DNA from: a virus
DNA length: 39,217 bases
Reading direction: 5' to 3' (one strand)
IMG/VR virus record: IMGVR_UViG_3300027900_000001
Location: 1 to 39,217 of that record
The position numbers and the translations under genes are program-made. Positions 12,663 to 13,646 of the stretch are shown here, in pieces (position 1 is the stretch's first letter; every line of letters begins with the position of its first letter). A model generated the notes under the pieces. It was given only the letters and a program-made list of their open reading frames with translations. It had not been told where the DNA came from and ran no database searches.

Positions 12663-12712
12663 GTTTCGCTTTGCTGGCAAATAGGCGCAATTATGCGCAT
12701 ACAGCGTAGTTA
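12663..12712. repeat. 50-bp end repeat, copy 2 (edge of array B)
   Basis: 42 of 50 positions equal those of 2332-2381, including CAAATAGGCGCAATTATGCG with the hairpin GCGCA-ATTA-TGCGC, and GTAGTTA at the end. It begins directly after the T-run of the capsid terminator and marks the 3' edge of array B on the minus strand. Confidence 0.8.
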
Positions 12713-12724
12713 TATAATACTTTA

Positions 12725-13075
12725 CTAAACACCCGTAAATGAACCTTTATCATTGAAAAACTGATTATCAACTTCATCTGGAATATTCATTTGTAACCCT
12801 TTGAACGCTACATTTATCGCACCAGCCATTATGTATAAATCTCTTTTATCTGAAAAGTCGGTCCTTCTTTTGACTCCGACTCCAAAACCTTTTTTACCTT
12901 CTTTTTCAAACTCAATACAAGAGTGTAGAAGAATAAAATTTCGCATGGTTAGTATTAACCAAATCGACTGCATTCGAACTATGAATCTTTTGACCTCCCG
13001 TCTAAAAGCATCATATAACAGCCTGTTTTGCAATAGGCTGGGTTCAGTGGTATTATTTTGTTTTGTGCTATTCAT
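12725..13075 (-). CDS. Array B small protein 1, unrecognised
   Basis: A 116-residue protein starting MNSTKQNNTTEPSLLQNRL. The start M-N-S-T-K is shared with the gene at 13155-13370 and resembles that at 2391-2702. The middle is basic and hydrophobic (FRREVKRFIVRMQSIWLILTMRNFILLHSC). It ends with a small acidic domain (IPDEVDNQFFNDKGS). No family is recognised. The DNA is AT-rich. It is the last gene before the end repeat of array B. Confidence 0.5.
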   Translation of the reverse strand: MNSTKQNNTTEPSLLQNRLLYDAFRREVKRFIVRMQSIWLILTMRNFILLHSCIEFEKEGKKGFGVGVKRRTDFSDKRDLYIMAGAINVAFKGLQMNIPDEVDNQFFNDKGSFTGV

Positions 13076-13154
13076 TTTATTTTGTGCTAAATTTTAAAAT
13101 TTGTTCCTTCGATTCCAGCCCATCGCAAAGCAGGGCGGGCGTTATAAGCAATGC
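13076..13154 (-). repeat. Cassette-like boundary and leader, array B
   Basis: On the gene strand: GGCATTGCTTATAACGCCCGCCC just after the upstream stop (the plus-strand form, GGGCGGGCGTTA, is the same as the 3' end of Vibrio integron repeats). A GCCC/GGGC hairpin follows, then an A/T tract with AGCACAAA, repeated again just after the ATG. A full attC structure with paired R boxes is not found. Confidence 0.5.
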
Positions 13155-13370
13155 CTACGGACGTTTGACATCAGGCCAATGTGGAATAAAGTAACTCCAT
13201 CCCATCGGCATAGGTATTGCCAAGCATTTCTGCCCTTGCTTCTTTTTTACCATACAAGTATAACCGTCATATAAAACAGTGTCCCCGATTTTGAAATCGG
13301 CACTGCTTATAACAGGCGGTTTGCCGTCAGTGGCGGTTGAGTGCTTAATTTGGTCTTTTGTGCTATTCAT
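13155..13370 (-). CDS. Array B small protein 2, unrecognised
   Basis: A 71-residue protein starting MNSTKDQIKHSTATDG. Its last 50 residues have the spacing of a small SH3-like beta barrel: FKIGDTVLYDGYTCMVKKKQG, then CLAIPMPMGWSYFI. The resemblance is weak and gives no function. The start codon region (ATGAATAGCACAAA on the gene strand) is nearly identical to that of the gene at 12725-13075. Its TAG lies in the conserved boundary just before TTATAACGCC. Confidence 0.5.
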   Translation of the reverse strand: MNSTKDQIKHSTATDGKPPVISSADFKIGDTVLYDGYTCMVKKKQGQKCLAIPMPMGWSYFIPHWPDVKRP

Positions 13371-13436
13371 GAGCTTTTGTATTAAAGTGAAACATTTGTG
13401 CTATCTATCGCCACCGAACGGCAAGCCGCTGGGGCG
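13371..13436 (-). repeat. Cassette-like boundary and leader, array B (second copy)
   Basis: On the gene strand the stop TAA is part of TAACGCC, followed by an imperfect hairpin (AGCGGC/GCCGTT arms) and GGCGATAGATAGC, so TAACGCC and GGCGATA would pair with one mismatch. The following AGCACAAATGTTTCA and ACAAAAG leader matches the array A leader at 2703-2740 closely. Confidence 0.5.
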
Positions 13437-13646
13437 TTACCCCTCCCCGACCTCAGTAAAAGTGCAATGCGCCTTCCGGATTGTCAGCTCTTTTTCGCTG
13501 ACATGAAATTCACCGATGACAAAGCCGCCGACCCAGATAGCATCCTGATAGGTAATCTGGATTTTCATCCGGTCTTTGTGCAGGTGGTCCACCTTGTAGG
13601 TCTTGCCGATTACTAAAGTTGGGGTTGGCATGGGAGTGCTAATCAT
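13437..13646 (-). CDS. Small phage protein after the helicase-methyltransferase, unrecognised
   Basis: A 69-residue protein, MISTPMPTPTLVIGKTYKVDHLHKDRMKIQ..., with beta strands and a YKV-type barrel pattern. Unlike the AT-rich genes around it, its codon use is like the core phage genes, so it probably belongs to the original operon rather than to array B. Its start overlaps the end of the helicase-methyltransferase gene by eight bases, and its stop is the first base group of the array B boundary. Confidence 0.5.
   Translation of the reverse strand: MISTPMPTPTLVIGKTYKVDHLHKDRMKIQITYQDAIWVGGFVIGEFHVSEKELTIRKAHCTFTEVGEG

Follow-up and report, generated by a model that had tools for sequence, protein, structure and literature searches.

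Arrays A and B of the phage genome analysed here are best read, with a probability of about 0.85, as integron-type cassette arrays that lie beside attI-like sites, carry reversed genes started from their attC sites, and would be served by a recombinase acting in trans. The window, meaning the whole stretch of DNA that was analysed, is the entire IMG/VR virus record IMGVR_UViG_3300027900_000001 (positions 1–39,217). An identical 99-bp terminal direct repeat bounds it (1–99 and 39119–39217) and gives it the look of a complete phage genome closed into a circle; it encodes phage primase, helicase and tail proteins, and probably belongs to a tailed phage, presumably of a Bacteroidota host. Array B (12663–13440, minus strand) consists of two cassettes (12710–13141 and 13142–13436), each containing an attC-like hairpin, with an adjoining attI-like site, while array A extends from 2332 to about 3415. 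The features are as follows.

2332–2381, plus strand: attI-like site of array A.
2379–2767, minus strand: cassette A-a, ORF 2391–2702 (MSSTKPQ...) with its attC.
2643–2770, minus strand: attC-like hairpin A2.
2768–3184, minus strand: cassette A-b, ORF 2780–3133 (MTKDNLTTN...) with its attC.
3061–3187, minus strand: attC-like hairpin A1, of a type present in 19 virus contigs.
3185–3415, minus strand: probable remnant cassette, ORF 3197–3370 with its own ATG, attC decayed; read by eye.
12630–12660, unstranded: terminator-like hairpin (GGGCTGCAAATGCAGCCC followed by a T run) between the plus-strand gene 11440–12570 and array B; read from the sequence.
12663–12712, plus strand: attI-like site of array B, marking its insertion end and closing with GTAG|TTA; identity with the related viral contig G416 ends at 12712.
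12710–13141, minus strand: cassette B-a, gene 12725–13075 with its own attC; edges G|TTA and CG|TTA.
12725–13075, minus strand: ORF MNSTKQNNTTEPSLLQNRLLYDA..., 116 aa, ATG in the attC loop; without Pfam match.
13016–13144, minus strand: attC-like hairpin B2, TAACG...TGTTA on the gene strand, holding the ATG at 13075.
13142–13436, minus strand: cassette B-b, gene 13155–13370 with its own attC.
13155–13370, minus strand: ORF MNSTKDQIKHSTATDGKPPVISS..., 71 aa, ATG in the attC loop; without Pfam match.
13310–13439, minus strand: attC-like hairpin B1, the last attC of array B, holding the ATG at 13370.

A stem finder with the pattern TAACG, 5' arm, loop, 3' arm, GTTA located exactly four sites in the window, two in each array and every one on the minus strand; shuffled copies yielded none. 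A scan of 415,010 bases gave 31 sites, against 0.0 in shuffles. These sites have the hallmarks of attC, an imperfect hairpin flanked by R and L boxes in pairs, with a spacer on the AACG side about 4 nt longer than is usual for attC sites, and their stems vary widely in sequence with the structure kept. When folded as single strands, A2, A1, B2 and B1 gave z scores of −3.9, −4.2, −2.1 and −3.0 on the gene strand, and of −3.3, −2.4, −0.7 and −2.3 on the opposite strand. The gene-strand ends of cassette B-a, GTTATATGATGC and GTATTATATAAC, are mutually complementary; those of B-b, GTTATAAGCAGTGCC and GGCATTGCTTATAAC, can pair over 15 nt with a single mismatch; and the remnant cassette retains an R-box remnant, ATAGGTAGGGC, near 3405. 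Pfam gave no convincing match for the four attC-started window ORFs or for the remnant-cassette ORF, an Rfam scan of the window at gathering scores gave no match, and inspection of the attC loops by eye revealed no promoter motifs. One stem pattern matched the locus L003 only, and the pattern GCACAAATGTTNNANTTTNANNACAAAA found no match.

The first-pass annotation had reported that the minus-strand genes 12725–13075 (MNSTKQNN...) and 13155–13370 (MNSTKDQI...) begin alike, and both do start with ATGAATAGCACAAA; the leader that it described as common to the two arrays was recovered (13371–13440 against 2706–2756, 77%, E 1.5e-5), and the boundary GGGCGGGCGTTA lies where it had been placed, at 13133–13144. 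This leader forms the hairpin loop of attC, so that the codons for MNSTK lie within the recombination site itself. The members of a 51-nt repeat family, located at 2689, 13062 and 13357, are 75–80% identical, and the attI-like repeats at 2332–2381 and 12663–12712 are 84% identical over 50 nt. Between the two origins offered for the paired arrays, two captures or a duplication followed by gene replacement, the best reading of these repeats is that the attI-like site was duplicated, with each copy then capturing cassettes independently. The attI-like repeat at both arrays, the reversed orientation, the ATG inside attC and the link to a recombinase go beyond that annotation.

The R boxes that begin and end a given cassette match each other in ordinary integrons. 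Here, the variable NNN of TTANNN agreed between a viral cassette's own two ends in 141 of 192 cases and with the next cassette in 14 (12.7 in shuffles); the corresponding figures were 27 of 37 for chromosomal cassettes (next cassette 4, shuffles 2.9) and 22 of 25 for Flavobacterium isolates (next cassette 7, shuffles 5.1), and both window cassettes agreed (2/2). The cut falls at G|TTRRRY, the edges in the isolates being CG|TTA. Stem mismatches in the first site set were more often G.T than A.C (455 against 141 in long sites, 131 against 22 in short ones), which favours AACG-to-GTTA folding, and the chromosomal sites (113 against 62) favour the same strand as in phage. Because the chromosomal genes lie on the other strand, this wobble bias is not a coding effect; it fits the AACG-to-GTTA strand being the recombining bottom strand. 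We also noticed the same long hairpin (GGGCAGGCTTGGCGTTCCG...) after R boxes at L023 4406–4498 and L053 about 18360–18450, on contigs of one MAG, which is perhaps another attC type.

The gene at 11440–12570, whose protein had no match within the phages collection, is carried by four viral contigs at 95–99% amino-acid identity. One relative, G416, aligns with the window at 91.3% over 7251–12712 and resumes from 13435, with other cassettes in between, and the edges of the alignment are the attI-like TTA and GCG|TTACCCC. The annotation's proposal of mobile cassettes with integron-like boundaries is supported by the attC hairpins and by this exchange in slot B. It had allowed that the arrays would be old fixed genes if relatives carried the same genes in both slots, which does not hold for array B, where the 91% identical G416 has other cassettes. 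Whole cassettes are gained, lost and exchanged precisely between relatives, and attI-like sites appear conserved at the insertion ends of arrays. In G419, six attC sites follow an attI-like site. G417, in which the stem finder found no attC site, ends before slot B and aligns up to 2329 at slot A. G416 has two attI-like copies in one array slot (L272 11846 and 12690, minus strand), as if an attI-bearing unit had been inserted there. A 736-aa helicase-methyltransferase fusion gene (13639–15849) may also be a swapped module, since it lies where the 91% identical G416 leaves an alignment gap (window 13636–15812). Beyond these relatives, a 27-base stretch of the array-A hairpin occurs in 19 viral contigs, and a slightly shorter stretch matched only 2 stretches among genome contigs. 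A looser stem pattern matched at least 120 viral stretches; in the phylum to which the Bacteroidetes MAG G001 belongs, it matched 25 of the 395 genomes sampled, with 0 control matches. The attC family is present in more than 100 viral contigs.

The same attC-cassette system is present in cultured Flavobacterium phages of the LMO6/LMO9 set, where hemulen6-1 has 14 sites; cassette content was taken from 17 of the 52 matching phage records. Fourteen Flavobacterium phage arrays, cut at the predicted sites, comprise 30 cassette types with the same attI-like site throughout. Entire cassettes, with cuts at CG|TTA, distinguish these phages: sniff9-1 and sniff9-2 differ in one 439-bp cassette, and snork6-1 and snork6-2 in the cassette adjoining the attI-like site. 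Independently of cassette cutting, 159 of 209 alignment ends fell within 15 bp of a predicted cut, where 5.9% would be expected. One cassette, c7, encodes a methyltransferase with its annotated start inside attC, and is found in 10 of the 17 phages (6 of the 7 isolated on LMO6, 4 of the 10 isolated on LMO9). According to the accessible parts of an earlier study (PMC7077304), in whose main text the words integron, cassette and attC are absent, LMO9 phages that plate less well on LMO6 are without a specific methyltransferase. Cassette c7 may be that methyltransferase, and is absent from morran9-1 and lillamy9-1, both named there in the context of reduced plating. The LMO6 exception without c7, snusmum6-1, has an 858-bp methyltransferase cassette beside its attI-like site that is missing in snusmum9-1; the two methyltransferases are 42% identical. 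In the MN812208 array, 114 bp inside the c7 gene are 83.6% identical to the DNA methylase gene of Vibrio phage helene 12B3 (HQ316579), a resemblance that possibly reflects cross-phylum spread. Leef_1 has the array layout and was not counted, the strict stem finder having found no attC in it.

Orientation separates the viral arrays from chromosomal ones. The viral set comprised 137 loci with 338 sites, delimiting 191 cassettes: 76 with an attC-started frame, 59 with a gene on the same strand and its own start, 9 with a gene on the opposite strand and 47 unclear. Of the 144 viral cassettes that can be classified, 135 thus have the gene reversed with respect to attC and 9 are classical, whereas all 18 classifiable cassettes of the chromosomal set (25 loci, 51 sites, 28 cassettes, of which 10 unclear and 0 reversed) are classical (Fisher p 1.4e-17). 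Genes lie 5' of their own attC and in the same direction in the classifiable chromosomal cassettes, and mostly not in the viral ones. The MAG contigs L055 and L060 are in neither orientation class; these two contigs (L023/L055 and L024/L060) surfaced with the phage-type pattern and hold reversed cassettes. These comparisons indicate that, relative to attC, the viral gene is reversed with respect to ordinary cassettes and that attC forms its 5' end.

This assignment was examined in pairs of sites, with the duplicate sub-loci L025–L052 left out of these counts and of the in-frame ATG counts below. Where pairs shared the downstream gene and differed upstream, the attC core was 100% identical in 8 of 46 and at least 0.79 identical in 20 of 46, the remaining 26 having lower core identity (for example L013/L080, gene 0.97 and core 0.65). 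Where the upstream part was the same and the gene differed, core identity was at most 0.68 in 23 pairs, and in five pairs with upstream parts at least 97% identical it was 0.43–0.44. As core identity follows the downstream gene, attC usually moves with the gene that it starts, and the moving unit, as delimited by these alignments, is attC plus that gene, cut at CG|TTA.

Among 324 unique sites (251 long, 73 short), an in-frame ATG lay within attC in 66 of the 88 long sites with an 80-codon open frame past the R box, compared with 42 of 176 in the other two frames of long sites (p 1.6e-15), and in 0 of 8 short sites with an open frame. The 163 distinct fused ORFs have a median attC-coded extension of 19 aa, with GTT in phase 0 in 100, phase 2 in 57 and phase 1 in 6. 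No ATG occurs in the 40 codons past the R box in 71 of the 163, and no ATG, GTG or TTG in the next 20 codons in 59. The C5 methyltransferase of L023 reads MTELDLKNENPNDAKLVLPASAVGLRVLSLFDGMSCG and has no other ATG before its first motif, RVLSLFDGMSC; a lipoprotein-like signal peptide spans the border of attC and body in 5 of the 163; and depositors placed minus-strand starts inside attC in four isolates (8/19, 5/22, 7/21 and 5/17). A predicted example of an attC-encoded peptide is MQKTLFENENLIEPLTPAFCIGAV in hemulen6-1. Differences by codon position in the attC-coded part of 32 pairs (53, 41 and 69) show a weak third-position excess. The attC start is not universal, 59 reversed viral cassettes having the gene start in the body. 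In the long-loop form, these frames place an ATG and about 20 N-terminal codons inside attC, and translation would begin at that ATG. At L014 1128–1270, read by eye, the attC-started frame stops before a second ATG, which suggests translational coupling instead of fusion.

The window encodes neither a tyrosine recombinase (PF00589) nor IntI (TIGR02249), and PF00589 was likewise not found in G416–G419 or in four Flavobacterium phage records. An integrase gene in the same element, as in a complete integron, is therefore lacking from the window, and any tyrosine recombinase would act on it in trans; PF00589 occurs in 7 other viral records. At 7 of 137 viral loci a tyrosine recombinase directly follows the array, past the last cassette, and in most of these a TAAC-TATATG-type site precedes its start by about 50 bp. 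Relatives of this compact recombinase lie upstream of chromosomal arrays, in the gene direction, at 14 of 15 fetched loci having both, L279 being the exception. The array recombinases score below the curated IntI cut-off (TIGR02249; fewer than 265 bits) and are without the extra I2 region, one of them lacking about 47 residues when aligned to IntI4 2a3v. The I2 domain is described, in the available part of PMC4792948, as 20 residues not identified elsewhere. The compact enzyme has an Xer-like length and scores best in NCBIfam against recomb_XerA_Arch; a tree of 31 sequences places the array recombinases outside both the IntI clade (100/99) and the Xer clade (100/100), with 8 of 10 chromosomal array enzymes forming a clade (100/99) and the phage enzymes placed together without support. 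From its position, we infer that the compact recombinase acts on attC. A recombinase beside G001:C2 (L053 13640–14596) was dropped as a candidate array integrase, since its neighbours presumably mark an IS91-type element; the array enzyme is that at L053 8945–10030. In the Bacteroidota genome of L261, a true IntI (414 bits) lies near a hairpin of another type, so this genome may house two integron systems.

We originally thought that attC might belong to the upstream cassette, the array being an ordinary one when followed on the gene strand, and that it might lend its start codon downstream. Genes and arrays do share one direction, as in ordinary integrons, but the idea was rejected and is already largely refuted by the co-travel of attC with the downstream gene. 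The isolate and G416 edges fall on the AAC|G side, the two common GTT phases would cause many shuffles to break frame, and in chromosomes the genes with attC sites of this family point the opposite way, so we consider it extremely improbable. Nor does it seem at all probable that the hairpins are conserved leader or regulatory elements swapped by homologous recombination, without a site-specific recombinase. The 50-nt leaders common to the loops, the free recombination of sister phages and the absence of a recombinase from the window and the Flavobacterium phages tested would suit such exchange; however, own-end R-box agreement in 141 of 192 cases has no reason under it, the edges cluster at one dinucleotide, stem sequences diverge widely while the structure stays, and the chromosomal counterpart has the opposite gene direction. 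It is also improbable, if slightly less so, that these are integron cassettes in which the loop ATG is not the real start, the protein being initiated further downstream or from an internal start by coupling. The fused ORFs with no alternative start codon nearby (71 and 59 of 163), the C5 methyltransferase of L023, the signal peptides across the border and the depositors' annotated starts all speak against this, set beside the 59 reversed cassettes with a start in the body, the interrupted frame at L014 and the weak codon signal, which speak for it.

A further alternative concerns the enzyme: the compact recombinase could be a common phage integrase that just happens to lie next to the array, with a host IntI moving the cassettes. 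True IntI is present in 4 of 25 array-bearing genomes, and in published work IntI1 recombines attC sites of phages at G|TTRRRY (PMC9892861, in the part available). At those four IntI loci, however, the strict finder detected no attC of this family nearby save one weak site in L261, all seven viral recombinases sit just past the last cassette, and the chromosomal relatives are upstream of their arrays at 14 of 15 loci; we therefore hold this alternative to be doubtful, though with a real chance of being right. We retain the reading of A and B as reversed, attC-started arrays with a recombinase in trans. Each cassette consists of one short gene and one attC hairpin, and the sequences place its insertion next to the attI-like site, where a phage operon has its 3' end. 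In the mechanism that we propose, the cassette gene would be transcribed by read-through out of this upstream operon, and translation would start from the ATG in the single-stranded attC loop. As a captured cassette would thus bring its own translation start, no Pc promoter would be needed. Some related arrays have their own compact recombinase, without the IntI insert, beside the attI-like site.

In a scan of the 79 fused ORFs, out of 163, that reach 90 aa or more, Pfam identified N6_N4_Mtase in 12, DNA_methylase in 2, MT-A70 in 2, Dam in 1 and restriction-alleviation Lar in 1. Because the cargo is rich in DNA methyltransferases and small uncharacterised proteins, the arrays probably let phages quickly change anti-restriction or counter-defence genes. 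More tentatively, and at somewhat short of even odds, we propose that Bacteroidota and their phages share a second integron lineage with an Xer-like recombinase that lacks I2, the domain considered necessary for handling attC, in which the phages have reversed cassettes with attC as translation start, and which may preserve an insert-less, possibly viral, integron ancestor; a viral origin of integrons has been speculated upon (PMC4792948, available part). Phage cassettes would then be self-contained, promoter-independent modules for counter-defence. If the main reading is right, a DNA recombination hairpin would double as start site and protein part, and phages would maintain a cassette pool of their own, expressed by a different logic, beyond picking up stray bacterial cassettes. 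An integrase without I2 beside attC arrays bears on the origin of integrons from Xer-like enzymes, and the cultured Flavobacterium phages, which differ by single cassettes, make the attC-start idea testable now.

Phage cassette arrays as such are already known: attC arrays without integrase and with methyltransferase cargo have been described in virulent phages, including one Polaribacter phage case (Qi et al. 2023, PMC9892861, available part). Those phage CALINs resemble the arrays here in both respects, but the arrays of two phages in that study have the typical direction, whereas here it is reversed; the accessible text of that paper does not mention start codons in attC or report a compact integrase. 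Sedentary chromosomal integrons are alike in cassette structure, own-end R-box agreement and attI-proximal gain and loss, and unlike the phage arrays, with their reversed genes, start in attC and recombinase without the IntI insert. With ORF-11/ORF-18 of attI1 (PMC8876359, available part) the present system shares a recombination site that supplies translation initiation to a cassette; there, a separate short peptide couples translation, whereas here attC would encode the gene's own start and N-terminus. XerA/XerCD share with the compact enzyme its length and best-scoring family, but the latter adjoins cassette arrays and lies outside the Xer clade. In the literature covered, outside which most subscription journals and preprints lie, start codons in attC, systematic reversal in phages and an insert-less integrase at attC arrays were unreported. 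Elsewhere in the window, a plus-strand gene repeats a 48-bp (16-codon) motif rich in N/G/C/Q eleven times in tandem at 33873–34493, and perhaps encodes a tail or fibre protein.
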